In this document: positions 2,038 through 14,116 of the stretch, one piece after another
Numbering within the stretch: the first letter of the stretch is position 1
Layout of the letters: each line of letters opens with the position of its first letter
Assembly: GCF_016735595.1 (NCBI RefSeq)
Contig: NZ_JAERRB010000001.1
Coordinates: 930,001 to 994,000 of the forward strand
Origin: Chryseolinea lacunae
GTDB taxonomy: Bacteria; Bacteroidota; Bacteroidia; Cytophagales; Cyclobacteriaceae
DNA: 64,000 nucleotides
Reading direction: 5' to 3'
Program-made: the position numbers and the translations under genes
The notes under the pieces: generated by a model
The model's database searches: none
Seen by the model: only the letters and a program-made list of their open reading frames with translations
What the model was told of the DNA's origin: nothing

Positions 2038-2931
2038 ATGAAGCGTCATCACGTCTACCTCGTTGTTCTTTTCATGTCCGTTGTTTGTCAATCTGCCGTG
2101 GCCCAGAAGCCTGTGGAGAACGCCGTGTTTTGGGAAGTGAGCGGCAATGGTCTGACAAAGCCGTCGTATCTCTTTGGCACCTTTCACCTGAAGGGCGCGC
2201 ACTATGTAGACAGCCTAACACAGGTGATGGACAAATTTAAAAGCAGCTCCGCCCTGGTAGGAGAATTGCTGATCGACAGCACCCTCACCATGAAGATGAT
2301 GAGCGCCTCGATCATGAAAGACACCACTCTCGACAAACTGCTGGGTGCCGACGACTATCAAAAGACTGCCGTCTGGCTAAAAGAAGTATCGGGCTACGAC
2401 CTGAAACTTTTCAACACCATGAACCCCATGACCATCCAGATTGTGTTGATGAGCATGGTGCAACAAAAATATTTCCCCATGAACGGGCCACAAGACGCTC
2501 CCATGGACATCTACTTTCAGCAAGAGGCCAAGAAATCAAATAAGAAACTTGTGGGCCTCGAAACTTTCGACGACCAGCTGAAGGCCCTCTTCGGTCAGTT
2601 CACCCTGAAACGTCAGGCCGAAATGCTGATGGAGTTTGTGAATGAAAAAGACAAAGCAAAAGACGAAATCATTGCCATGAACCGCCACTATCGCGAAGGC
2701 AACCTGATGAAGCTGGAAGAGCTGATGGCTAAACAAACCTACACCGAAAAGGAAGCCACGGTGATGCTCTACGACCGGAACGCAAAATGGATGGAACAAT
2801 TGCCGCAGCTCATGAAAACACAACAGACTTTTGTGGCCGTGGGCGCGCTTCACCTCGCCGGCAAAATGGGACTGGTCTCATTGCTGCGCAAGGCGGGCTA
2901 CACTGTGAAACCGCTGAAGACGTTATTATAG
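2038..2931 (+). CDS. TraB/GumN family secreted protein
   Basis: 297 residues with a signal peptide ending near AVAQ (residue 23). The family hallmarks are both present: LFGTFHLKGAHYVD near residue 45 (GTxH motif) and FVAVGALHLAGKMGLV near residue 275 (GxxH motif). TraB/GumN/PrgY proteins resemble Tiki-type metallopeptidases, so a periplasmic peptidase role is plausible but not proven. It stands alone downstream of the ECF pair and its stop overlaps the convergent downstream gene by six bases. Confidence 0.85.
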   Translation: MKRHHVYLVVLFMSVVCQSAVAQKPVENAVFWEVSGNGLTKPSYLFGTFHLKGAHYVDSLTQVMDKFKSSSALVGELLIDSTLTMKMMSASIMKDTTLDKLLGADDYQKTAVWLKEVSGYDLKLFNTMNPMTIQIVLMSMVQQKYFPMNGPQDAPMDIYFQQEAKKSNKKLVGLETFDDQLKALFGQFTLKRQAEMLMEFVNEKDKAKDEIIAMNRHYREGNLMKLEELMAKQTYTEKEATVMLYDRNAKWMEQLPQLMKTQQTFVAVGALHLAGKMGLVSLLRKAGYTVKPLKTLL

Positions 2932-3621
2932 CCCTGCGTGGTACGTTGCCAACACTTCCGTTAACCCGTTTTTCATGGCCGTGGCGATATCGTCCCACAC
3001 GGGTGTGCCGATATATTTTTGATTGAGTTCAATTTCGATGCCTGCATACTTCCGATCATTGAAAACAGTGCGGAGGTAGGTTGGAAACCCATCGTCAATT
3101 CCCTTATACGGTTCATTAAACTGAATTACCAATCCCGGTAAATGTGGGGCTAGAGCTTCGGCATAGCGTTCGCAGAATGTGGCCTCGCTGCTGCGGGCCG
3201 GATCGAACAACAGGCCAACATCAACCGTGCGCACAACGTTGTTCAGCACGGGGGTGAAGGAATGGATGGCCAGGTGAAGGGTGGTTTCGGATGCGCGCTG
3301 AATGAGGTCTTCCACGCTGGACCGGTGCGGATGATAATACTCCTCCAAAATGCGCAGGCGCTCGTCGTCGGTGAGGTGTTGCACATATTCCGAAAACAGG
3401 GCCGAATGATGCAGCGACCTGTTGGGCTCCACCAGCAGGCGTGTGGTTTCACAAATCCACAACGGCGCGGCCAACTGGCCCGATAGGTAACGGGCCATCT
3501 CCAACGCGCCAGGGTCCCAGCCCCGGTGCGACTGCAACACGTCGTGGCGTCCCTCAAAAAAGTGGCTGTAGGCCGTGGGCACTGCATTGCCCGCATGCTC
3601 GCAAGTGAAGATGAGGTTCAT
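2926..3621 (-). CDS. N-formylglutamate amidohydrolase-like protein
   Basis: 231 residues. FTCEHAGNAVP at the N-terminus, LLVEPNRSLHH near 65, LAIHSFTPVLN near 118 and the late YAGIEIELNQKYI segment match the N-formylglutamate amidohydrolase (FGase) family, zinc-type enzymes of the peptidase M14-like fold that release formate or another acyl group from an amino acid. No histidine degradation gene is nearby, so HutG function is unlikely. Members of this family are sometimes linked with ATP-grasp/GCS2 peptide ligase loci, and such an operon lies 2 kb away on the same strand. The substrate is unknown. Confidence 0.8.
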   Translation of the reverse strand: MNLIFTCEHAGNAVPTAYSHFFEGRHDVLQSHRGWDPGALEMARYLSGQLAAPLWICETTRLLVEPNRSLHHSALFSEYVQHLTDDERLRILEEYYHPHRSSVEDLIQRASETTLHLAIHSFTPVLNNVVRTVDVGLLFDPARSSEATFCERYAEALAPHLPGLVIQFNEPYKGIDDGFPTYLRTVFNDRKYAGIEIELNQKYIGTPVWDDIATAMKNGLTEVLATYHAGL

Positions 3622-3831
3622 AATTTATTTCAACAAAAATAAGGATGCGAAGGTTATTCGCACACCGTGGGCGGGCACATCGCCCTGTTCACCGCTTAAC
3701 TTTTCGCCCCGGTGCTCATCTTTTCACCACAACCTTCGTTCAAATCAAAGCCTTACCCGTGGTTTTTGCATTTAAACGGGGGTCTGACTTGTCCGATTTT
3801 TAATTTCACGTTTTGAAACCGAATTTTGGAA
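3622..3831. other. Divergent intergenic region, no clear feature
   Basis: About 210 bases separate two divergently transcribed genes. It is A/T-rich close to both starts, which fits promoters in both directions, but no TAnnTTTG box of good quality, hairpin or repeat could be supported. Confidence 0.4.
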
Positions 3832-4734
3832 ATGCGTTTACGCGAAAAACTTGAAGCCCCGTTTCCGTATTACCTGAACGACGAACGCAAGAACGTTGTG
3901 TTCATTCTGTTTGTGAGCGCGTTTGTGGTCTTCTTCCTGCAGGTCTATCATGTGTCGCATCACCACCACATCATCACCATCGGGCACAAATTCATTTTCG
4001 GAGGCATCACCTTTCTGGTGCTCATAGTCGACATTGTTGTGCTGCCCCGTTTTTTCCCAAAAGCCTTTGACCCGGCACACTGGACGGTAGGGAAATACAT
4101 CCTGCTCACGCTGTTGCATTGTGTAGGCATCGGGGCCGTCATTCCCGTAGTGGAGAAGCTCTTCCTGTTTCCCGAGATGCCGTTTTGGGAACTGGTGGAG
4201 GGATCTAACCGACAGATCGCCCAAACCGGGGTGATCACCATCACCATCATGACCCTGTTTCTGCGCAACAATGTGCTGAAGCAGAATCTGCGCAGCGCCA
4301 CCAAAGCCAACCAGGAACTGGACAAGATCAAAACCCTGAAAAAGGAGAACCTGGCCGGCAACGGACAAAACCTCCACCTGACCCTGCATTCAGAGACCAC
4401 CGAAACCCTGAGCTTCCACCTCCCCGACCTGCTCTACATCGAGGCCGACGACAACTATTCTACCGTGGTGTGGCGCGATGGCAAGGGCATACACAAAAAA
4501 CTGCTGCGGGCAAACCTCAAGAACATAGAAGGGCAGATCGACAACAACTTTGCCATCCGGTGTCACCGCTCCTATCTCGTGAACGTGAACGCCATCGGGA
4601 ACATCAGTGGCAACGCCAACGGCTACAAACTCCAGATTCTGGACACCGACATCTCCATTCCCGTGTCGCGGGCCAAGGGCAAAGAGCTCATCGACAAGAT
4701 CCAGCAGCTGCGCAACGCCATGGAAGTGGCCTGA
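3832..4734 (+). CDS. Membrane-anchored LytTR transcription regulator
   Basis: 300 residues from ATG 3832; a TTG two codons earlier is possible. Four transmembrane helices lie in the first 150 residues (roughly 22-40, 48-71, 86-110, 130-148), then a short coiled linker (KANQELDKIKTLKKENL) and a LytTR DNA-binding domain from about 180 to 290 (LLYIEADDNYSTVVW, FAIRCHRSYLVNVNAI, ISGNANGYKLQI). There is no receiver domain, so the signal probably enters through the membrane part. Such 4TM-LytTR proteins are common in Bacteroidota. Ligand and regulon are unknown. Confidence 0.88.
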   Translation: MRLREKLEAPFPYYLNDERKNVVFILFVSAFVVFFLQVYHVSHHHHIITIGHKFIFGGITFLVLIVDIVVLPRFFPKAFDPAHWTVGKYILLTLLHCVGIGAVIPVVEKLFLFPEMPFWELVEGSNRQIAQTGVITITIMTLFLRNNVLKQNLRSATKANQELDKIKTLKKENLAGNGQNLHLTLHSETTETLSFHLPDLLYIEADDNYSTVVWRDGKGIHKKLLRANLKNIEGQIDNNFAIRCHRSYLVNVNAIGNISGNANGYKLQILDTDISIPVSRAKGKELIDKIQQLRNAMEVA

Positions 4735-4882
4735 CCGGCATCGCCATTCACCCCAAAACGCTTCTGGCTCACCCCAAGCTTGCACACTTGGCCACAAGTT
4801 CGGCGCCGTTCGCTCCATTGCGCGGCATCGGGGCAGCCTCTTGCCGTTCTTCGCGTTGCTATTTCTAATAAATGACAACGCT

Positions 4883-5302
4883 ATGAAAAAATCTATCCTC
4901 TTCTTGATTGTGCTGGCCGGTTGTGCGATCCACGCCGTGGCCCAGGAAAAAGCTGCTCCCCGTTCCGAATTTCTCATCGAGCTCTCGGCGTCGGCCGTGG
5001 ATGTGAAGGCCGGAGAATCGCGCGATGTGACCTTGCAGGTGAACCGCTCGAAAGCCTATTCCAAATTCAAAGGAGTTTTGGGCGTGTCGTCAGGATTGCC
5101 CGAGGGTGTTACCGTGTCGTTTGCGCCTGCGCAGGATGTGGATGGAAGCAGCGTGGTGACCATCGCCGCCGATGCCACCGCCAAACCCGGCACCTATACG
5201 TTGATTCTCAACGGCACACTGCAACATAAAACCAAGGGCGCCACACTCGCCCTCACCGTGCAGGAAGGTGCAGGCCACACCGTGACCTCCATTCACGAAT
5301 AA
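4883..5302 (+). CDS. Small secreted protein with a predicted beta-sandwich
   Basis: 139 residues from ATG 4883, chosen because it begins a clear signal peptide (MKKSILFLIVLAGCAIHAVAQ). The longer open frame upstream overlaps the LytTR gene and reads like a shadow. The mature part alternates short hydrophobic strands (SVDVKAGESRDVTLQVNRS, VTVSFAPAQDVDG, PGTYTLILNGT) as in Ig-like or NPCBM-associated extracellular domains. The gap to the preceding regulator is 148 bases. I do not recognise a named family. Confidence 0.7.
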   Translation: MKKSILFLIVLAGCAIHAVAQEKAAPRSEFLIELSASAVDVKAGESRDVTLQVNRSKAYSKFKGVLGVSSGLPEGVTVSFAPAQDVDGSSVVTIAADATAKPGTYTLILNGTLQHKTKGATLALTVQEGAGHTVTSIHE

Positions 5303-5328
5303 GACATTAACCTAGATTGCGTTCTGCG

Positions 5329-5354
5329 GCCTTTGCGGGGAAACCTGCAAAGGC
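5329..5354. terminator. Hairpin terminator between convergent genes
   Basis: An 11-base-pair stem (one G-T pair) closes a GAAA tetraloop: GCCTTTGCGGG pairs with the CCTGCAAAGGC half. It lies between the stop of the secreted protein and the stop of the GCS2 ligase, where a bidirectional terminator is expected. No long T-run follows on either side. Confidence 0.55.
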
Positions 5355-5370
5355 GCAAATGCGCGATGGA

Positions 5371-6609
5371 TCACGGCCTGAACATTTCGTTCGCGGCCAG
5401 ACACTGCGCCAGTTGTTTGTAGACTTCCACCACGCGTTCATGCGTAGGTTCTGCACCCGTGGCTTTCACCATGCGTTGTGCCAATGGACCATCTTCCAGA
5501 ATAACATCCAGTGGTTTTTTCCATTCTCCCAGTTTGCCCTGGGCAATCATCCGTTCCACAAGGTGCTTCAATATTTCTTGTGCTGTGGCTGCCTTGGCGG
5601 GCATGCCCAGCAAGGCCAGGTATTCGGCATTGGCAATGATGGCCTGCTGCCCTTTCTCTACCGTCTGGTCGAGCAACTGTGCCAGCACTTCCGTTTTCCA
5701 TTTCATTTGCGCTTCATGATCGATGAACTTCCCAGCCACCAGGGCCTTGATGAGTTCGATCACAAACGACACCACCGCGAGATCGGCCGACGGACATTCC
5801 TGTATGTCCATGATCCTGATTTCGATGGAGCCACGATCGAAGCGTGGTATGGCGCCGCGCGAGTTCACCCAGATGGGATTCAACTCCCCTTCCGGATCGA
5901 ACGGCGTGATGTCGGTCTTGATCTTTTCGTAGATGGTATTGAAATAGTTGCGCCGCGAGAACACCGCTTCGGGAATCACTTTGCCCGTGATGCAGGGAAT
6001 GCGCGATTGGTTTGTCTTATAATATTTCAACCGTGTGTCGAGCAGGCCGGTGAGGCGACCATCCAGAATGGGCGAGCTTGCACAGAGCGCGGGCAGCAAC
6101 GGCAACACCAGCCGGATTGCCGCATGAAGACGTGCAAACTCTTCGTCGTCATAGAACGGCAGGTTCAGGTGGGTGCTTTGCAGGTTTGACCAACCGTGAC
6201 CACGACAGTCGAATATTTTATTGTAGATCGTATAGACTTCGTTGTTCTCGTGAGGCCACAGTTTTGTTTCCGTCATCGGGTTCATGAACGGGTGGGCCGC
6301 AGACGGCAGCAGCATGGCATTCCACGACGCGAGAATGGTGTTGATGTCGGTCACGTTTTTGGCAAACTCTTTATCCAGCGCCACAAAGTCCGACTCGGGC
6401 TTGGTAGATTTTAATTCCACCACGTGCATCACCAGTTCGTTCGACCAGGTGACCATGCCTTTGTCTACGTCGCTGCCATAGTGGCCCAGCACGTGCTTCA
6501 GCAAGTCGTCGGTGATGGGTTTCACCTGCAGGGTGGTGCGGTCCACCAGCATGTATTCCAGTTCCACACCGTAGCCCTGGAAGAGGTGTATGCGTGAGGG
6601 TTGCGTCAT
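5371..6609 (-). CDS. GCS2-type carboxylate-amine ligase
   Basis: 412 residues of the glutamate-cysteine ligase GCS2 (YbdK-like) superfamily, which joins a carboxylate to an amine using ATP. Visible motifs are GVELEYMLVD (14-23), SAAHPFMNPM (about 102-111), NLQSTHLNLPF (about 142-152), CASSPILDGR (about 176-185) and IPRFDRGSIEIRIMDIQEC (about 255-273). It is the last gene of a four-gene minus-strand operon; its start is one base from the stop of the ATP-grasp ligase. No second glutathione gene (gshB) is visible, so classical glutathione synthesis is not supported. Both ligases in one operon suggest a small peptide or amide with at least two bonds. Confidence 0.85.
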   Translation of the reverse strand: MTQPSRIHLFQGYGVELEYMLVDRTTLQVKPITDDLLKHVLGHYGSDVDKGMVTWSNELVMHVVELKSTKPESDFVALDKEFAKNVTDINTILASWNAMLLPSAAHPFMNPMTETKLWPHENNEVYTIYNKIFDCRGHGWSNLQSTHLNLPFYDDEEFARLHAAIRLVLPLLPALCASSPILDGRLTGLLDTRLKYYKTNQSRIPCITGKVIPEAVFSRRNYFNTIYEKIKTDITPFDPEGELNPIWVNSRGAIPRFDRGSIEIRIMDIQECPSADLAVVSFVIELIKALVAGKFIDHEAQMKWKTEVLAQLLDQTVEKGQQAIIANAEYLALLGMPAKAATAQEILKHLVERMIAQGKLGEWKKPLDVILEDGPLAQRMVKATGAEPTHERVVEVYKQLAQCLAANEMFRP

Positions 6610-6610
6610 G

Positions 6611-8056
6611 TTACTTGTCGGCTTTGATCTTGTTTAGAAACACCTCCATGATGGTGGCATAGAGTTTATCTTTCAATATTTTGTCTTCCATGCCCGAGTC
6701 AATGTTGGGATTGTCGTTGATCTCGATCACATAGAACTTGCCGTCCACTTCTTTCATGTCCACACCATAGAGGCTGCGTCCAATGAGCGCGGTGGCTTTC
6801 AAGGCCGTGCGGATCAGCCCTGCCGGCGCGTTGTCTACTGCCACAGACTCAACATCGCCTTCGCGGTTTTGTTTTTCCGAATTCCAGTTCACGATCTGCC
6901 AGTGTTCGGTCGCCATAAAATATTTACACACATACAATGGCTTGCCGTCGATGATGCCCACGCGCCAGTCGAACGTGGTGGGCAGAAATTCCTGCGCAAT
7001 CAGCAACTCCGATTTCTGAAACATGTCGCCACACACCTTCTTGTATTCATCCGCATCCTTGATCTTGAACACCCCTTTGCTAAAAGCACCATCGGGTTGT
7101 TTGAGAATGAACGGATAGGGCAGCTTTTCGGGAAGCGTTTTATGATTTTCTTTGCTCACCACAAACGACTTGGGTGTGAGTATTTTGTTGGACGTAAGCA
7201 ATTCGTCCAGATACACCTTGTTGGTACACTTGAGTATGGATTCCGGATCGTCGATGACCGACAACCCCAGCGACTGGGCTTTCTTGGCAAAGCGAAACGT
7301 GTGATGGTTCACATACGTGGTTTCGCGAATGAACAGCGCGTCGTATTGAATAAGCTCGTCGAAGTCGTCGCGCGTGATGAGTTCCACATTGAAGCCCGCC
7401 TGGTCGCCGGCCTTGATAAATTTCTGAATGGCCTTTTCGTCAGAAGGCGGGTTGGGATCGTTCGGATCGACCAAAATGGCCAGGTCGTATTTTTTCTTGT
7501 CGGGCACCACGTCGCGTTTGCGCGACAGGTATCGTTCTACAGACGATCGCAGCAACGGCCAATCGCCTTCGGGCACCTCGCCCAAACTCAACGGCTTGAT
7601 GCTGTGCAAGGCCCACTTGCTTCGCTTGGTGAACTTGGCGTGCAGACATGGCGCCTGTATGTATTGAAAAAGCTGCTTGGCCAATTTGTTCAGGCGTTCC
7701 TCCTGCGTGCTGCCAAAGTAGATATCAAACTCCACCTTGTCTTTGTCCGACACGTTCTTGAATGCAGTTTGAATGAGGGCATCAAAGTCTTCAGACTCTT
7801 CCCGCAGAATGGACGGGAACCGCAGGTCCTGGATGGTCGACACGCCGGGCAGCACCTTGTGTTTGCGCGCTTCGGCCAGCAACGACACATAATAGCCCAG
7901 ACTTTGGTATTGATAGGACTTGCAAAGGTTAATCACCTTCAATCCACGCTCGGGATAATCGTCACTCTCGATGTAGTGTGACGGTGTGACCACCTTCACA
8001 TCTTCGAGGTTGAACTTCCAGAGTGCGGGGTTTTCAACGATTATGAGTTTTGGCAT
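6611..8056 (-). CDS. RimK-like ATP-grasp ligase with RLAN N-terminal domain
   Basis: 481 residues. The first about 190 match the RimK-like ATP-grasp N-terminal (RLAN) domain (MPKLIIVENPALWKF, INLCKSYQYQSLGYYVSLLA). The rest is an ATP-grasp fold with YPFILKQPDGAFSKGVFKI, LIAQEFLPTTFDWRVGIIDG and the Mg-binding VIEINDNPNIDSG near residue 443-455. RimK relatives add glutamate or other amino acids to a carboxylate through an acyl phosphate. It overlaps the upstream peptidase gene by 23 bases and abuts the GCS2 gene, so the three are surely co-expressed. The substrate is not predictable from sequence. Confidence 0.88.
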   Translation of the reverse strand: MPKLIIVENPALWKFNLEDVKVVTPSHYIESDDYPERGLKVINLCKSYQYQSLGYYVSLLAEARKHKVLPGVSTIQDLRFPSILREESEDFDALIQTAFKNVSDKDKVEFDIYFGSTQEERLNKLAKQLFQYIQAPCLHAKFTKRSKWALHSIKPLSLGEVPEGDWPLLRSSVERYLSRKRDVVPDKKKYDLAILVDPNDPNPPSDEKAIQKFIKAGDQAGFNVELITRDDFDELIQYDALFIRETTYVNHHTFRFAKKAQSLGLSVIDDPESILKCTNKVYLDELLTSNKILTPKSFVVSKENHKTLPEKLPYPFILKQPDGAFSKGVFKIKDADEYKKVCGDMFQKSELLIAQEFLPTTFDWRVGIIDGKPLYVCKYFMATEHWQIVNWNSEKQNREGDVESVAVDNAPAGLIRTALKATALIGRSLYGVDMKEVDGKFYVIEINDNPNIDSGMEDKILKDKLYATIMEVFLNKIKADK

Positions 8057-8777
8057 GGGTCTTTTTTTCTTTCGGTTCGATCACCAATAAGTTGGCGTCG
8101 TAGGTAACGATGCCGAGCATGATGCTGTTGATGAGGCGTGCAAAACTCACGCCATACAATTGTCCCTTACCCAGCGGGTTGGGTTCCATCGGGTCGGCAA
8201 TGTAGGCGCAGTTCTTCGCTTCATCATAGCCGGTAATGACCACGAAGTGTCCCGAAGGTTCGCCTTTAATGCTGTCGTAAATATCAAACTGGGGAATTTC
8301 GCGGGCCGTGCCATAGAGGTGTGTGGCACTGAGCCCGGCCAGCAGGGGGATGGACCGGTTAAGGTAGTCCTTTATTAAATGCTCATCCAATTCCGTGTTG
8401 CGCAGCTCGCCACCGGCTTCCAGAAATTTGATGTAGGCCTTGGAGGCTACCTGCAGCTTGCGTCGCTTTGTTTTGAACTCCATCTGGGCCTGGAGCTGCT
8501 GCACCATTTTCTTCGACGAGCTTTTGAACCACGTGGGATCAAACACATTGAGGTTGTAGGTATAAATGTGCGCATTGTAGCCGCGTTCCAGTGCGTGATG
8601 TCCCAGCAGCACAGCCAGTGTGCCGCCAAACTTGAGCTGCTTCACTTCCTTGATCACCTCCTTCAGCGGCACCTGGTCGCCAAAATAATTATACAGCGCG
8701 TGCAGGCAGGTGGGTCCGCAGGTCACTTCGTCGGGTTGGGCCTGGATGTCGAAACCCAGAACAAGTTCTTTCTTCAT
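8034..8777 (-). CDS. C39-like cysteine peptidase of a ligase operon
   Basis: 247 residues without signal peptide, so cytoplasmic. The papain-like triad is visible: C20 in EVTCGPTCLHALYNYFG, H177 in SGHFVVITGYD and D195 in YIADPMEPNP. Unlike classical C39 domains it is not fused to an ABC transporter. It overlaps the ATP-grasp gene by 23 bases. In operons with amidoligases a peptidase of this type could hydrolyse, trim or transfer the bond the ligases make; which of these applies here is inference. Confidence 0.82.
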   Translation of the reverse strand: MKKELVLGFDIQAQPDEVTCGPTCLHALYNYFGDQVPLKEVIKEVKQLKFGGTLAVLLGHHALERGYNAHIYTYNLNVFDPTWFKSSSKKMVQQLQAQMEFKTKRRKLQVASKAYIKFLEAGGELRNTELDEHLIKDYLNRSIPLLAGLSATHLYGTAREIPQFDIYDSIKGEPSGHFVVITGYDEAKNCAYIADPMEPNPLGKGQLYGVSFARLINSIMLGIVTYDANLLVIEPKEKKTHAKTHNR

Positions 8778-8813
8778 AGGGGATGCTTTGGCTTTTGGCT
8801 TGGCTGTTCTTTT

Positions 8814-9611
8814 TCAGGTGAGCCTTAACAATTTTGTGATCAGCAAATCAAAAACCTCCACAAGAATGAGTATGATAATGATCCATTCCAGCAAGTTGCT
8901 TTCACGTTGATTGATAATCTCTCTGAAAACGGAAAGATTATCTTCAATGATACGCAACGTATATTCTATTTCACTGAAACGCACGCGCAGGTCAAAATGT
9001 TTGATCAATCCCTGGTGCAGTTTGTCCAGGTAGGCATCGTCCCACACCTGGTCGGGCGCGTCGAAGATGTAGATGTTTTCGGCAATGTCGTTTTGTGTGT
9101 TGAGGGCGCGGCCCAGGAAGCGCATCATGTTCTTGCGGCTGATCTTGAGCTTGCCGGTTTGTTCCAGCTGATTGGTGAACACCTTGGCTTCGGTGAGCAG
9201 GTTTTCGGTGATGGCGTGATAATGGTCGAGCGCCACCGACTGGGCGAGGTTGAACATGGTGATGCGAATCACTTTGTCGTCGATCTTTTCAAGAATCAGC
9301 TCGTCAAAGTCGAAGCGCAGTTCGCTGCCTTCGGTGGCGTGCACAATGTGGTCGTCGCGCAGCCAGGGCGTCACCTCGTTGCGTTGAAACGGTTGCACGG
9401 TTTTGATGGCCCACTTCATTTCGTCTTCGGTGTAGCCGGCAAACACCACCACACCAAAGTTGAAATAGTATTGAAACTTCTTCTCATCGAAAACATAAAA
9501 GAGTTCGGAAGAGGAATCGGCCAGCGGCTTGATATCGAAAAAGGTTTTGATGGCCTTGATGTCGAACTGGTTGGCCACCAGGAAAGCGGAGAGTTTTACC
9601 GTTTGGGGCAT
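8814..9611 (-). CDS. RMD1/DUF155 family tail-anchored protein
   Basis: 265 residues from ATG 9611; a GTG five codons upstream (9626) is the longer alternative. The body matches the RMD1/Sif2 (DUF155) family: ELFYVFDEKKFQYYFNFGVV, VFAGYTEDEM, and the late ALNTQNDIAENIYIFD and LRVRFSEIEYTLRIIEDNLS segments. The C-terminus has one hydrophobic helix (LLEWIIIILILVEVFDLLI), a tail anchor. Fungal members are mitochondrial proteins tied to meiosis and translation; bacterial function is unknown. It heads the C39-RimK-GCS2 operon with a 36-base gap, a link I do not know to be described. Confidence 0.82.
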   Translation of the reverse strand: MPQTVKLSAFLVANQFDIKAIKTFFDIKPLADSSSELFYVFDEKKFQYYFNFGVVVFAGYTEDEMKWAIKTVQPFQRNEVTPWLRDDHIVHATEGSELRFDFDELILEKIDDKVIRITMFNLAQSVALDHYHAITENLLTEAKVFTNQLEQTGKLKISRKNMMRFLGRALNTQNDIAENIYIFDAPDQVWDDAYLDKLHQGLIKHFDLRVRFSEIEYTLRIIEDNLSVFREIINQRESNLLEWIIIILILVEVFDLLITKLLRLT

Positions 9612-9706
9612 AGATCGGCCTTTCACTAAAGATATAAATTTAAATTCATGGCCCGTTCATTTGCGTTTGTGGGAAATGTGAGAAATTGCCGCCCATTAAT
9701 TCGAAT

Positions 9707-10468
9707 ATGAAAAAAGTCATTCTCACACTGTCCTTTTTTGCCATCGCCCTCAGCGCCTGGGCCTGGGGCGCCACCGGCCACCGCGCCATCGGTTTTGTGG
9801 CCGACAAATACCTTTCTAAAAAAGCACAAAAGGAACTGCAACGCATCCTGGCCGGCCAGTCTACCGCCATGGCCTCCACGTGGATGGACGAGATCCGGTC
9901 CGATTCGACCTATGACTATGCCGGCGACTGGCATTGGGTGACTATTCAAGACGGGCAGACCTATGAACAATCGGAAAAGAATCCGCATGGCGACCTCATT
10001 CAAACCATTGAGCGCCTCATCACCGAACTGAAATCAAAAAAACTCAACGCCAAAGACGAAGCCGAACATCTGAAAATGCTGATCCACCTCGTGGGCGATG
10101 TTCACCAACCCCTGCACGTGGGCCAGGGCACCGACGCGGGCGGCAACAAGGTGAAAGTGACGTGGTTCAGAGGCGACAGCAACCTGCACACGGTGTGGGA
10201 CAGCGAGATGATTGACGACACACACCTGAGCTATACCGAACTGGGCGAATCGCTTGAGAAACCCGACGCCGTGAAGATTGCCGCATGGCAGAAAAAATCA
10301 GTACGCGACTGGGCCTACGAAAGCATGACCTACCGTCCCCAGGTATACGCTATCGGCAATGGCAAACTGAGCTACAAATACGCCTACCTCAACATGCCCG
10401 TTGTGCGCCAGCGGTTGGTGCAGGCTGGTGTGCGGCTCGCCGGAATTTTGAACGAGATATATAAATAA
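9707..10468 (+). CDS. S1/P1-type secreted nuclease
   Basis: 253 residues from ATG 9707. The signal peptide ends at AWA, leaving Trp20 as the mature N-terminus, which in this family itself binds zinc (WGATGHRAIG). Other zinc ligands are visible in YAGDWHWVTI, HLVGDVHQPLHVG and SNLHTVWDSEM. The family cleaves single-stranded DNA, RNA and 3'-phosphomononucleotides outside the cytoplasm, here probably for nucleotide or phosphate scavenging. A longer in-frame start at 9686 would put residues before the signal peptide and is not preferred. Confidence 0.92.
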   Translation: MKKVILTLSFFAIALSAWAWGATGHRAIGFVADKYLSKKAQKELQRILAGQSTAMASTWMDEIRSDSTYDYAGDWHWVTIQDGQTYEQSEKNPHGDLIQTIERLITELKSKKLNAKDEAEHLKMLIHLVGDVHQPLHVGQGTDAGGNKVKVTWFRGDSNLHTVWDSEMIDDTHLSYTELGESLEKPDAVKIAAWQKKSVRDWAYESMTYRPQVYAIGNGKLSYKYAYLNMPVVRQRLVQAGVRLAGILNEIYK

Positions 10469-10489
10469 ACACCACCGTCTCACAAAAAG

Positions 10490-10527
10490 CGAAGGCGCGG
10501 GTTCATCACCCGCGCCTTCGTTGTTTC
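10490..10527. terminator. Rho-independent terminator between convergent genes
   Basis: A perfect 12-base stem, CGAAGGCGCGGG with its complement at 10509-10520, and a 7-base loop. TTGTTTC follows on the plus side and an A-rich run precedes it, so it can stop both the nuclease and the convergent rhamnosidase transcripts. Confidence 0.85.
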
Positions 10528-10556
10528 ATGCCCATTGAATTTCTACAACGAACTGC

Positions 10557-13292
10557 CTAGGGCTTCCAGCCATAGGTAAACGTGTAGGCCCCGGAGCCCA
10601 GCTGCAACTTTCCGTCACCACCTTCGGCTGCCAACGGCGACAACGACTTCAGCTTACTGATGTCGATGCCCCCTTCCGTTATTTTGGCATCGGCGGCACG
10701 CGGCAATATTACCTGTGCCGTGGTGTTGGCGGGAATGGTGATGGCCAGAATAAAATTACCATTCTCAATTTTCCACGCCGACTTTGCCGGGCCGTATTGT
10801 GTGTTCAGTTCTGCCGTGGCGTGCTTGAAGTTGCCGCCCGGCTGTGGCGCGATAATGATTTCTTTATAGCCCGGCGCGGCCTCGCGCAAACCAGTCACCC
10901 TTCTGTACATCCAGTCGCCGATGGCGCCGTAGGCATAGTGGTTAAACGAGTTCATGCCCGGCGTTTGAAACGTGCTGTCGGTTTTGATACCGTCCCAACG
11001 TTCCCATATGGTGGTGGCGCCCATCTTCACCGGATAGAGCCACGAAGGATAGGTTTCCTGTAACAACAGGTTGTACGCCACGTCCAGGTAGCCATAGCGT
11101 GTCAGCACTTCACAGAGATAGGGTGTTCCCAGAAAGCCTGTGGTGAGGTGGTTGCCATAATCTTTCACATTTTGCGCCAACCGATCGGCAGCCTGGGCGC
11201 GCAGATTTTCGGGAAGCATGTCGAAGTTCAGGGCCAGCACATAGGCCGTTTGTGTGCCAGCCACCAATCTTCCGTTGGGCGTCATGTATTCCTGCACAAA
11301 AGCGTCTTTGATTTTTTTGAGCGACTCCGTGTAGCGTTTCGCGTCATCTTCTTTGCCCAATACTTTTGCCGTGTTGGCCATGATCTGGGTAGAGTTGGCG
11401 AAGAAGCATTGTGCAATCAGGTATTTGTCAGTCACTGCCGAGCGACCATCGGTGTCGTCGTTGGGGCGATAGAAGAGCCAGTCGCCAAAGTGAAAACCTT
11501 TGTTCCAAAGATTGTTGGTGCTGTTTTTTTCCATAAAGCCCACCCAGGCTTTCATGCTCTCGTATTGTGTTTCGAGAATACGTTTGTCGCCATAGGCATT
11601 ATAGATGTTCCAGGGAATGATGGTGGCCGCATCGGCCCATCCCGCAGAGGCGGATGCATTTTCGCCCAGCACGTTGGGGATCACAAACGGCACACGTCCA
11701 TCGGCTACCTGATCGGCCGCCAGGTCTTTCAACCACTTGTGAAAGAAGGTGGCCACGTTCATGTTGTAGGCAGCGGTGCGCGCAAAGGCCTGTGCGTCGC
11801 CGGTCCAGCCGAGGCGCTCGTCGCGCTGCGGGCAGTCGGTGGGCACATCCACAAAGTTGCCTTTCTGTCCCCATTGAATGTTGTGTTGCAACTGGTTGAT
11901 GAGGGCATTGGACGATGTGAACGTTCCTGTTGACGCCATATCGGAATAGAGCGTGGTGGCCACAATGTTTTCGGGGGCGATTTTGGTTTTGCTTTTGATG
12001 CGGATGTAACGAAAACCAAAGAAGCTGAAGTGCGGCTCAAAAGTTTCTTCCACGCCACCTTTCAACGTATAGATCACCTCGGCCTGTGCGGCGCGAAGGT
12101 TGTCGAGATAGAAGTTTCCTTTTTTGTCGAGCACCTCGGCGTGGTGAATCACCACCTGGTCGCCGGCATTGCCTTTCACTTTAAAGGTTACAAAGCCCAC
12201 CAGGTTCTGACCAAAGTCGTAGATCACTTCGCCGGCGGCTGTGGTGCTCACCGGTTTGGCTTTGAAGGTTTCGTGTTTTTTCACGGGAGGCGAATAAGAA
12301 GCCACCAGGTTGTCGTTCGGGACCTTGATCACGCGCACACCGCGCCAGTCGTTGGGGGCGTACGATGCCAGGGTCCAGTCTTTTTTCTCAAGACGCGCGT
12401 CGTAGGCTTCGCCATAGTAGATACCGGCCTGCACAACGGCACCGGTACTGCTCTTCCACTGATCGTTGGACGCGATGGTTTCTTTGGTGCCGTCGGTATA
12501 GGTCACCTCCAGTTGAAACAGTAGTGCGAGGTTTTTGCCATAGATATTCCGGTTGTTTTCCCATGCCAGGTTGCCCCGATACCAGCCATCGCTAAGAATG
12601 ACGCCCGTGGCATTGCGCCCGTTGGTAAGCAACGTGGTGACATTGTAGGTTTGATATTGCAGACGCTTGTTGTAGCTGGTCCAGCCGGGCGTGAGGTATT
12701 GATCGCCCACGCGCTGGCCGTTGATGAAACATTCGTAGATGCCGTGCGACGTGATGTAGAGGCGCGCGTTCTTTACCATCTTTTTCAAATCGAACGCGTT
12801 GCGCAGCATGGGTGCGGGACTGTGCACACTGTCGCCGGGAAGATCGGGTTCGACCCACGCGGCAGTCCAGTCGGATGACTGCAACAAACCGGTTTCCCAC
12901 CACTTCATTTCGCTCCAGGCCGACGTGTTGCCCTTGTTGTCAACCACCCGCACCTGCCAGTAATAACGTTGACGCGACGTGAGCGCCGGGCCACCATAGT
13001 TCACCAGCACCGACTGATCGGACGGCACCACGCCGCTCTGCCAGAGAATGTTTGCTCCCTTGGCAAGCGCCTTGTCGTCGAAGCCGACGCGAAGCTCATA
13101 GGATTTTTGTGTCACCCCCCGCTGCTCCGACACTAGCTTCCACGACAAGCGAGGAACTTTGACATCGATGCCCAGGGGATTGTTTTGATACTCGCACGTA
13201 GGTTCGCCCACGCTGAGTTTGGGTGCTGGTTGTGCCAGCAGCGAAGTGGCTGTGGCGGCCAGCAGGCAGAAAAGAAAAACGAAAATGCGCAT
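10557..13292 (-). CDS. Secreted alpha-L-rhamnosidase (GH78)
   Basis: 911 residues with signal peptide (cleavage after SLLAQ, about residue 21). Domain order is the GH78 one: an N-terminal Ig-like part (PRLSWKLVSEQRGV, about 45-140), a rhamnose-binding-like part (ARLYITSHGIYECFINGQRV, about 170-330), a beta-sandwich, the (alpha/alpha)6 catalytic barrel and a C-terminal beta domain. The catalytic acid region reads DCPQRDERLGWTGDAQ (about 485-500), with the Glu of RDE the likely general acid. It should release rhamnose from plant or microbial glycans in the periplasm or outside. No SusC/SusD genes are nearby, so it is not in a classical polysaccharide utilisation locus. Confidence 0.92.
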   Translation of the reverse strand: MRIFVFLFCLLAATATSLLAQPAPKLSVGEPTCEYQNNPLGIDVKVPRLSWKLVSEQRGVTQKSYELRVGFDDKALAKGANILWQSGVVPSDQSVLVNYGGPALTSRQRYYWQVRVVDNKGNTSAWSEMKWWETGLLQSSDWTAAWVEPDLPGDSVHSPAPMLRNAFDLKKMVKNARLYITSHGIYECFINGQRVGDQYLTPGWTSYNKRLQYQTYNVTTLLTNGRNATGVILSDGWYRGNLAWENNRNIYGKNLALLFQLEVTYTDGTKETIASNDQWKSSTGAVVQAGIYYGEAYDARLEKKDWTLASYAPNDWRGVRVIKVPNDNLVASYSPPVKKHETFKAKPVSTTAAGEVIYDFGQNLVGFVTFKVKGNAGDQVVIHHAEVLDKKGNFYLDNLRAAQAEVIYTLKGGVEETFEPHFSFFGFRYIRIKSKTKIAPENIVATTLYSDMASTGTFTSSNALINQLQHNIQWGQKGNFVDVPTDCPQRDERLGWTGDAQAFARTAAYNMNVATFFHKWLKDLAADQVADGRVPFVIPNVLGENASASAGWADAATIIPWNIYNAYGDKRILETQYESMKAWVGFMEKNSTNNLWNKGFHFGDWLFYRPNDDTDGRSAVTDKYLIAQCFFANSTQIMANTAKVLGKEDDAKRYTESLKKIKDAFVQEYMTPNGRLVAGTQTAYVLALNFDMLPENLRAQAADRLAQNVKDYGNHLTTGFLGTPYLCEVLTRYGYLDVAYNLLLQETYPSWLYPVKMGATTIWERWDGIKTDSTFQTPGMNSFNHYAYGAIGDWMYRRVTGLREAAPGYKEIIIAPQPGGNFKHATAELNTQYGPAKSAWKIENGNFILAITIPANTTAQVILPRAADAKITEGGIDISKLKSLSPLAAEGGDGKLQLGSGAYTFTYGWKP

Positions 13293-13445
13293 GTCTGGTA
13301 ATAGGGTTTAGTGAGACTAAGATACGGACATTCTGGAGGATGGCCGACCTGTACCGTCATGATGGCTCGGCGCTGGCTTCGTCTTGCGTTGGGGATGAGC
13401 ATAGGGTGAGTGAGGGGTGCCTGTACTGACATCAAAGGCAATGCC

Positions 13446-13512
13446 TGCCCGGGGTCGGCGAAGCTGACGCCCAACACCGGGCATGGTGTGGATGGTGGCG
13501 GAGGCCGCCATC
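13446..13512. repeat. Two adjacent GC-rich hairpins
   Basis: Hairpin one pairs GCCCGG (13447-13452) with CCGGGC (13477-13482) and contains an inner GTCGGC/GCTGAC stem (13454-13459 and 13463-13468) with a GAA loop. Hairpin two is a 9-bp stem with one wobble, GATGGTGGC (13491-13499) with GCCGCCATC (13504-13512). Neither has a T-run. They lie in the 254-base gap between nudK and the rhamnosidase gene and resemble a REP-type element more than a terminator. Confidence 0.5.
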
Positions 13513-13546
13513 ACGTTCCTTTTTACGAAGGAGAAATCTAAATCGC

Positions 13547-14116
13547 TTAGAGCAGATTATTCAGCTTTGCGTATTGCAGGAGCATGATGGTTTTCGCGTC
13601 TTTGATTTCGCCGGTGGTGATCATACCATACGCTTTTTCGAAATCAAGTTCCAGCACTTCAATGTTTTCGTCTTCGTCAACACCTCCGCCTTCGGTCACT
13701 TTTTGGGCGGCAGTGTATTCTCCGGTGAAGAAGTAGAGGATTTCGGTTACGGAGCCGGGCGACATGTAGACATCGAAGATCTTTTTCACGTGGGTGATGC
13801 GGTAGCCGGTTTCTTCTTCGGTTTCGCGGCGGATGCAGTCTTCGGGATTGTCGAGGTCGAGCAGGCCCGCGCAGGCTTCAATGAGCATGCCGTCGGCGTT
13901 GCCGTTCACAAACGTGGGGAGGCGGAACTGGCGTGTGAGCACCACGGTGCGTTGTTCCTTATTGTAGAGCAGGATGGTGGCACCGTTGCCGCGGTCGTAG
14001 GCCTCGCGGCTTTGGATGCGTTCTTCGCCGCTGCGTGTAAGAAAAGAAAAGGTGTACTTGTAGAGTTTGTACCAGTTGGCCGACAGCGTTTGCTTGTCGA
14101 TGATTTTGGGGGTCAT
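13547..14116 (-). CDS. nudK: Nudix hydrolase, GDP-mannose pyrophosphatase (NudK) type
   Basis: 189 residues, same length as E. coli NudK (191). EACAGLLDLDNPEDCIRRE followed by TEEETGYRI is the NudK form of the Nudix box, and VYMSPGSVTEILYFFTGEY follows as in GDP-mannose/ADP-sugar pyrophosphatases. It would hydrolyse a nucleotide sugar to sugar phosphate and NMP. It is transcribed in the same direction as the rhamnosidase but 254 bases and two hairpins separate them. Confidence 0.88.
   Translation of the reverse strand: MTPKIIDKQTLSANWYKLYKYTFSFLTRSGEERIQSREAYDRGNGATILLYNKEQRTVVLTRQFRLPTFVNGNADGMLIEACAGLLDLDNPEDCIRRETEEETGYRITHVKKIFDVYMSPGSVTEILYFFTGEYTAAQKVTEGGGVDEDENIEVLELDFEKAYGMITTGEIKDAKTIMLLQYAKLNNLL

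Follow-up and report, generated by a model that had tools for sequence, protein, structure and literature searches.

A recurrent bacterial amidoligase cassette that may make and turn over an N-capped small peptide

Two unlike ATP-dependent ligases and a cysteine peptidase are encoded side by side, together with a DUF155 protein, in a stretch of 64,000 nucleotides from Chryseolinea lacunae (here called the window), which raises the question of what these proteins might make together. The four genes lie on the minus strand from 9611 to 5371, in the layout given by an earlier note on this DNA. The DUF155 (RMND1/Rmd1 family) protein carries a hydrophobic C-terminal anchor and spans 8814..9611 (265 aa from an ATG; a GTG start would give 8814-9626). 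After a gap of 36 bases follows a C39-type papain-like cysteine peptidase without a transporter part (8034..8777, 247 aa). Its gene overlaps by 23 bases (8034-8056) that of a 481-aa protein combining an RLAN domain with a RimK-like ATP-grasp ligase (6611..8056), and a single base (6610) separates the latter from a GCS2-family carboxylate-amine ligase of a divergent subfamily (5371..6609, 412 aa). Beyond a LytTR gene, the same strand encodes an FGase-family hydrolase (2926..3621, 231 aa), which had been suggested as a possible further member. The gene indeed belongs to the set, as FGase directly follows GCS2 in many relatives. Promoter and terminator scans stayed within one standard deviation of shuffles.

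Pfam places these domains above their respective cut-offs: DUF155 (PF02582, 110.8 bits versus 27), Peptidase_C39_2 (PF13529, 49.2 versus 24), RLAN (PF14401, 147.5 versus 25), RimK (PF08443, 33 versus 21), GCS2 (PF04107, 80.7 versus 21) and FGase (PF05013, 79.2 versus 28.9). Presumed active-site residues, which the earlier note had read as present, are conserved in family alignments. In the peptidase, the presumed active-site residues Q14, C20 and H177, together with G21, are invariant in 37 of 37 alignment rows and D195 is nearly so, and 58 positions of RLAN-RimK are at least 97% identical across 170 homologues. Two general readings of the locus were rejected. The C39 protein comprises the peptidase domain only, and the ten proteins at 2038-14116 of the window that were scanned with Pfam include no ABC transporter, which argues against bacteriocin processing; PADLOC returned 0 families for all five proteins at E ≤ 0.01, which argues against anti-phage defence.

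Among NCBIfam models, the best match of the window's RLAN-RimK protein is TIGR00768, the RimK family alpha-L-glutamate ligase (70.4 versus a cut-off of 143.4 bits). It likewise scored below cut-off for the LysX equivalog (65.3 versus 275.6) and for glutathione synthase models (26.4 and 35.8 versus 272 and 408). Foldseek gave 1245 rows for an AF2 model with a pLDDT of 88.2; among the best 50, the closest solved folds belong to D-Ala ligases, LysX/ArgX and RimK, with LysX/ArgX giving the highest TM-scores by target length within those 50 (0.75-0.84). These 50 rows were all ATP-grasp ligases, with TMq no higher than 0.49, and so they carry no information on the RLAN domain (residues 1-180). Nine GCS2-type NCBIfam models match the GCS2 protein, every one of them below its cut-off, including TIGR02048 for GshA (44.5 versus 249.05) and TIGR02050 for YbdK (54.7 versus 176.4). 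A profile search returned no solved structure for the cassette GCS2 at E ≤ 0.01, so its substrate pocket was not comparable with known ones. The window's genome has a second GCS2 gene, of higher score, at a separate site (C1:902104). That genome also encodes two FGases of different score, the cassette member at 76 bits and another, at C23, at 214.2 bits; across 13 genomes, cassette members scored 66-86 bits, one FGase outside the cassette 87, and the remaining members 214-257.

The gene families recur together in distantly related bacteria, so the objection that they might never be found together elsewhere does not apply. RLAN was present in 46 of 392 sampled genomes of Bacteroidota, the window's phylum, in 81 of 397 of Pseudomonadota and in 53 of 195 of Planctomycetota. 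GCS2 accompanies RLAN at 31 of the 46 Bacteroidota loci, 27 of these with C39 and 22 with FGase. The usual order there, C39-RLAN-GCS2-FGase, is also seen in many other phyla and is the conserved core, with DUF155 optional; at two planctomycete loci (L295 and L296), RLAN-RimK is fused to GCS2. We compiled 146 RLAN loci from the three phyla, scoring neighbours within 3 kb of RLAN, and counted 80 further GTDB loci separately. Within 3 kb (1102 kb over the 146 loci), profiles matched GNAT acetyltransferases 81 times, GCS2 67, C39 105 and FGase 46 times; the other 925 kb gave 0 matches for each, so the association exceeds chance. C39 is absent within 3 kb at 41 of the 146 loci (7 with GCS2, 32 with GNAT and 2 with neither).

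The two partner types are near-strictly exclusive. GCS2 occurs at 66 of the 146 loci and GNAT at 78, with none having both and two having neither. Among the 80 GTDB loci, two (L096 and L116) have both GCS2 and a GNAT within 3 kb and seven have neither, two of the seven ending at a contig end. FGase follows the same division: it lies within 3 kb of RLAN at 46 of the 66 GCS2 loci, is absent within that distance from the other 20, and is found at 0 of the 78 GNAT loci. On a FastTree phylogeny of RLAN, where some of the nodes near the switches are poorly supported (values of 5, 59 and 84), the GNAT/GCS2 label requires at least three changes, so one module can replace the other. No RLAN-RimK position separates GNAT-type from GCS2-type ligases at a 75%/75% criterion, as would be expected of a ligase with one and the same task in either setting. 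GCS2 and GNAT seem to be alternative modules for capping an amine, each combined with the one ligase, an equivalence supported by only about three switches.

Given these properties, we hypothesize that the job of this widespread amidoligase cassette is to build a small N-capped peptide and to turn it over, a reading to which we give a probability of roughly 45%. What follows on the reactions and their sequence, on the substrate and on what DUF155 does is our inference. RLAN-RimK would join an amino acid to a carboxylate at the expense of ATP, and GCS2 would add a gamma-glutamyl cap to an amine of that molecule; in other lineages, the corresponding cap would come from a GNAT acetyltransferase. 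FGase, whose gene accompanies GCS2 alone, would remove or edit the glutamyl or acyl cap, and the C39 hydrolase would cut the peptide. Where present, the tail-anchored DUF155 protein would tether these enzymes, or what they act on, to the inner membrane. Functionally characterised GCS2 enzymes use free glutamate and a small amine. The GTDB loci with both modules or neither, the RLAN loci without C39 and the GCS2 loci without FGase count against this reading. Flanking ORFs of 99 GCS2-bearing loci (at least 35 aa; blastp E 1e-5, half coverage, single linkage) yielded no conserved small carrier or precursor gene, although very short or diverged proteins could escape such clustering; on this result, we rejected a dedicated carrier protein or precursor peptide. 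The widest non-core cluster, covering 17 loci, links sensor-kinase-like proteins into a chain, and their distances vary; Pfam found PAS, HisKA and receiver domains in the one member tested.

The earlier note's view of the locus as a candidate peptide or amide pathway is partly borne out: the gene set recurs, but a peptide or amide metabolite, as opposed to a modified protein, is not established as its product. The main rival, somewhat unlikely in our judgement, is a ribosome- or nascent-chain-linked protein modification at the membrane, in which RLAN-RimK would extend the C-terminus of a target, GCS2 or GNAT would modify it, C39 (and FGase) would trim it, and DUF155 would anchor the ribosome or the target. 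LysX/ArgX and RimK, the near folds of the ligase, have protein-bound substrates, a point against a small peptide. RimK, a near relative by the TIGR00768 match, acts on ribosomal protein S6/RpsF (PMC12239564). For both of the GNAT partners that were tested, rimI is the best match, at scores short of its cut-off (69.4 and 76.8 versus 86.4 bits). RimI is, however, a frequent best match for generic GNATs, and we know of no GCS2 ligase that acts on proteins. Protein modification also draws on the recurrence of DUF155, whose human member RMND1 is linked to the mitochondrial ribosome (PMC5264221), which is a further point against a small peptide; yet DUF155 or a diverged relative lies near only 18 of the 146 RLAN loci, and the flanking-ORF clustering gave no conserved target gene nearby.

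To our knowledge, no clear molecular job has been assigned to the DUF155/RMND1 family. The hydrophobic C-terminal tail of the window's protein, LEWIIIILILVEVF, is common to its relatives, and the AF2 model (pLDDT 86.8) has a long C-terminal helix at 208-264; Foldseek gave no match at E ≤ 0.001, and its best rows (CorA/Mrs2 channels and TBP, none with E below 0.005) were not used. In the earlier note this gene headed the set. It proves to be a recurrent partner in other phyla, but an optional one outside the conserved core. A reading in which the core is one functional unit and DUF155 a mere neighbour, carried along in a few lineages, is improbable in our estimate. Such a neighbour would fit the 128 of 146 RLAN loci that have no DUF155-like gene nearby, and the 67 of 79 cassette genomes searched that lack DUF155 altogether. 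Among the 12 bearers, DUF155 adjoins the cassette in seven, all of the window's lineage, is separated from RLAN by unrelated genes and some 6 kb in a single one (L113), and falls outside the examined stretch in four; the eight DUF155 neighbours of the window's lineage form one clade on the RLAN tree. In 10 of 22 Pseudomonadota genomes with both genes they are far apart or on other contigs, but in 12 of 22 they are no more than 5 kb apart, against well under 1 expected, by our own arithmetic, for random placement; the p-values of this co-occurrence carry no correction for relatedness. The strand and side of DUF155 also differ between lineages, and its gain and loss require at least nine changes on the RLAN tree, counting diverged relatives. 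The latter, found at six planctomycete RLAN loci, have no Pfam DUF155 match, and neither has the hit of our own DUF155 profile in L138; the sequences and a profile-profile comparison (97.8% probability, E 1.2e-12), covering the C-terminal 91 columns only, show kinship with the C-terminal part of DUF155.

Glutathione synthesis by the usual GshA/GshB route is unlikely and was rejected as the simple reading: the NCBIfam cut-offs of both enzymes are not reached, and GshB-strength matches (PF02955, at least 132 bits) are mostly absent, the best in the window's genome reaching only 72.4 bits, to a 312-residue frame that we take for a RimK paralogue. A glutathione-like thiol route, with GCS2 making gamma-Glu-Cys and RLAN-RimK adding a third residue, is very improbable: it shares the enzyme logic of glutathione synthesis, and a GshB-strength match is missing from 45 of 50 RLAN-cassette genomes, so that RLAN-RimK could fill the GshB step, but the GshA-type and glutathione synthase cut-offs are far off, 5 of the 50 carry a strong GshB, and the pairing of the same kind of RLAN-RimK with GNAT at 78 of 146 loci is unexplained by glutathione synthesis.

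Because RLAN is common in the samples of Pseudomonadota, Planctomycetota and Bacteroidota, the amide or peptide concerned would be a common one among bacteria. The N-capped small peptide that we favour would, under the near-strict choice between GNAT and GCS2, exist in two capped forms of one product, a prediction that can guide chemists' search. Through the DUF155 link, a protein family with a human member that causes mitochondrial disease (PMC5264221) gains a bacterial setting open to experiment. As a long shot, DUF155/RMND1 proteins could be membrane partners of an old amidoligase system, from which mitochondrial RMND1 would descend: a RimK-like ligase of fixed chemistry, exchangeable N-capping enzymes (GNAT for an acetyl cap, GCS2 for a gamma-glutamyl cap that FGase would erase) and C39, acting on ribosome- or membrane-associated peptides.

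Among known systems, the amidoligase operons of Iyer, Abhiman, Burroughs and Aravind (2009) reportedly link an ATP-grasp ligase, a COOH-NH2 ligase or GNAT, and a peptidase, the same kind of gene set as the cassette. According to a later paper from that group (PMC4431377), ATP-grasp ligases were already known to be linked with COOH-NH2 ligases or GNATs, so the earlier note's term 'undescribed' holds only in part; the GNAT/GCS2 swap and the DUF155 link were not found in the literature searched, the full text of Iyer et al. 2009 aside. With GshA/YbdK and GshB, the cassette shares the GCS2 domain and the logic of two successive ATP-dependent ligations; it differs in its sub-cut-off GCS2, the general absence of GshB and the separate higher-scoring GCS2 elsewhere. 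The N-acetylglutaminylglutamine amide (NAGGN) synthetase and the NAT8L/RIMKL route to NAAG yield an N-capped dipeptide by means of an acetyltransferase and an ATP-grasp ligase, two enzyme types that the GNAT cassettes also have, and one domain of the GNAT-C39 protein of L220 weakly matches the NAGGN synthetase model TIGR03103 (28.9 bits). That match does not approach the 569-bit cut-off, and RLAN, C39, GCS2 and FGase are not known from those routes; TIGR03103 is also absent from the 25 NCBIfam families matching the window's ligase and from the best 25 of 34 for the GNAT-RLAN fusion of L062. LysX/ArgX resemble RLAN-RimK in fold, as described above, whereas the LysX cut-off is not reached and no LysW-like carrier gene was found among the ORFs flanking the cassette. 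Finally, RimK and the RimB/RimK pair (PMC12239564) match the ligase in fold and likewise encode a PF08443 ligase with a peptidase; the cassette ligase scores below the RimK family cut-off and has an additional RLAN domain, its peptidase is papain-like rather than a retropepsin, and GCS2 and FGase complete the set.

The window holds four minus-strand genes that encode, in transcription order, a DUF155 protein (9611–8814), a C39-type cysteine peptidase (8777–8034), an RLAN-RimK ATP-grasp ligase (8056–6611) and a GCS2 ligase (6609–5371), each above its Pfam cut-off. The 23-base overlap and one-base gap between genes described in an earlier note were both reproduced from the coordinates. Further along on the same strand lies an FGase gene (3621–2926), with a LytTR-type regulator on the plus strand (3826–4734) between it and GCS2. 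The FGase gene, suggested in the same note as a possible member of the set, does belong to it: in two relatives from the window's family (L067 and L070) the order is GCS2, FGase, LytTR, with FGase adjoining GCS2 downstream. The LytTR and FGase genes have swapped places in the window and in L078, the Chryseolinea serpens locus, relative to L067 and L070, a local rearrangement. Across 13 genomes, cassette FGases score 66–86 bits against PF05013, and one further low-scoring FGase (87 bits, genome G411) lies outside the cassette; the window's cassette gene scores 76 bits versus 214 for a second FGase of its genome, on another contig. At locus L141 (10705–11967), an HD-like domain follows the cassette FGase in frame, with a weak HD_4 match (20.9 bits, below the cut-off of 27.2). 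Elsewhere in the window, a YoeB-type toxin gene (136–420, minus) stands beside a Phd/YefM-type antitoxin gene (421–756, minus), both above their Pfam cut-offs.

The neighbourhood check across Bacteroidota that the earlier note had called for found the families recurring together. RLAN (PF14401) occurs in 46 of 392 sampled genomes of this phylum, and all 46 loci were inspected (45 plus the window). GCS2 lies near RLAN in 31 of them; C39 accompanies it in 27 of these 31 and FGase in 22, usually closely packed in the order C39-RLAN-GCS2-FGase. A scan of GTDB genomes matched at least 590 stretches, with at least 583 relatives; the best 80 of 583 were kept, which biases this set towards the window's type. 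Record titles among the matches listed include Bacteroidota, Planctomycetota, Verrucomicrobia, Omnitrophota, Desulfobulbaceae, Gammaproteobacteria, Thiobacillus, Spirochaetes, Leptospiraceae and Vicinamibacteraceae. The nearest named relative among them is C. serpens, whose ligase is 89% identical and whose gene order is that of the window, LytTR gene included. Both C39 and GCS2 lie within 2.5 kb on the ligase's strand in 65 of the 80 best loci; the other 15, some of which are truncated by contig ends, lack this arrangement. RLAN-RimK and GCS2 form a single protein of about 1000 residues in two planctomycete loci (L295, L296), and the RLAN-RimK genes of L133 and L153 have no usual partner detected in the flanks examined. 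At L077 (8186–9689), the RLAN and RimK parts are encoded by different ORFs that overlap, next to a GNAT-DUF3335 gene.

We compared 146 RLAN loci, comprising the 46 from Bacteroidota, 60 of 84 Pseudomonadota matches and 40 of 55 planctomycete matches, the latter two sets not drawn at random; among the genomes sampled, 81 of 397 from Pseudomonadota and 53 of 195 from Planctomycetota carry RLAN. Counting partners on both strands up to 3 kb from RLAN, we found GNAT in 78 loci, GCS2 in 66, both in none and neither in two (L243, L270). FGase lies near RLAN in 46 of 66 GCS2 loci versus 0 of 78 GNAT loci, while C39 is present in 59 and 46, respectively, and absent from 41 of 146 overall. The partner profiles gave zero matches in the 925 kb of flanks more than 3 kb from RLAN. 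Fusions of GNAT with the peptidase (DUF3335 type) are common in Pseudomonadota, and 14 of 46 Bacteroidota loci have GNAT joined to RLAN itself. Beyond the 146 loci the exclusivity is not absolute: among the best 80 GTDB loci, 68 have GCS2 alone, three GNAT alone, two both (L096, L116) and seven neither; of the seven, L127 and L146 stop no more than 100 bases from the ligase gene. The GNAT genes at L096 (5302–6027) and L116 (1990–2667), the only cases within 3 kb in GCS2-type cassettes among the loci examined, score 78 and 54 bits against a profile median of 118.

Mapping the GNAT/GCS2 label onto a FastTree phylogeny of 170 ligases requires a minimum of three changes, around which some nodes are weak; the partner has thus been swapped occasionally rather than frequently. 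At a threshold of 75% within each type, no residue position of the ligase distinguishes the two, while 58 positions show at least 97% identity across all the sequences; ten of these fall within RLAN domain residues 43–70. We interpret these results as a single ligase reaction combined with interchangeable capping enzymes.

DUF155 (PF02582) is an optional but recurrent partner of the cassette, as judged from co-occurrence, proximity, varied arrangement and changes on the tree. It is found in 40 of the 397 Pseudomonadota genomes, 22 of which also have RLAN versus 8.2 expected (Fisher p 3e-7, relatedness ignored); DUF155 and RLAN are no more than 5 kb apart in 12 of the 22 and not in the other ten, and eight DUF155 neighbours were confirmed by Pfam. 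In Bacteroidota, 19 of the 392 genomes have DUF155 and six have both versus 2.2 expected (p 0.016, relatedness ignored); it heads the cassette in four of the six, all of the window's family. In a mixed set, 12 of 79 cassette genomes have it. Six planctomycete loci and L138 carry an ORF that flanks the cassette on its peptidase side, of 360–390 residues in five of the seven and longer in L267 and L277, for which Pfam makes no DUF155 call. Five of these tail-anchored ORFs (L138:5911–7089, L279:4012–5175, L287:4095–5186, L281:7411–8559 and L271:3861–5000), which match no Pfam model at cut-off, align with DUF155 over the C-terminal 91 columns (hhalign 97.8%, E 1.2e-12), and that part has the LEWII-type tail; L267 and L277 were assigned by custom profiles alone. 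Overall, DUF155 or such a relative lies near RLAN in 18 of 146 loci, on varying strand and side, and its presence changes at least nine times on the 170-row tree versus 18–23 in 100 label shuffles. The predicted DUF155 model has a weak, non-significant fold likeness to CorA/Mrs2 magnesium channels (best E 0.0046, TMq 0.27–0.38). Upstream of DUF155 in the window, an S1/P1-type nuclease gene (9704–10468, plus) is divergently oriented, as in nine relatives (L064, L067, L070, L078–L083); where DUF155 is missing, this gene stands upstream of C39 instead.

The enzyme families, and the fact that no carrier or target gene was found nearby, lead us to favour a small-peptide system, at somewhat under even odds (about 0.45). 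RLAN-RimK would form an amide bond, and GCS2 would gamma-glutamylate an amine of the same molecule; in other lineages an acetyl group would be added instead. FGase and C39 may undo or trim the product, and DUF155 could locate the process at the membrane. Catalytic roles of the conserved cassette residues are presumed by analogy. That the cassette instead modifies proteins, as the kinship with RimK and with RMND1 would suggest, is the main rival reading and seems somewhat less likely to us. As for glutathione, named in the earlier note as an alternative product, the scores of the window's GCS2 and ligase fall far below the GshA and GshB cut-offs, and another GCS2 gene of the same genome, outside the cassette (C1:902104), scores higher. 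Of 50 genomes that carry an RLAN cassette, five have a PF02955 match as strong as that of a GshB (at least 132 bits); 30 have only matches of at most 82 bits, mostly in frames of about 300 residues that are taken for RimK paralogues, and 15 have none.

The general kind of operon was reportedly described already by Iyer et al. in 2009. The pathway had been put forward as undescribed, which does not hold for that general kind and appears to hold for this particular cassette, on which the titles, abstracts and matched passages of the open-access literature searched (including PMC12239564, PMC5264221, PMC4431377 and PMC2922099) yielded no paper. A matched passage of one later paper states linkages of ATP-grasp ligases with COOH-NH2 ligases or GNATs (PMC4431377).

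Profile searches of the PDB returned LysX and RimK among the best matches for the ligase, C39 domains of transporters for the peptidase, the FGase-family protein 2odf for FGase, and nothing at E ≤ 0.01 for GCS2. In the predicted ligase model (pLDDT 88.2), the RLAN domain has no fold match among the rows listed. The ATP-grasp part resembles D-Ala ligases, LysX/ArgX and RimK, with TM scores by target of 0.75–0.84 to LysX/ArgX.
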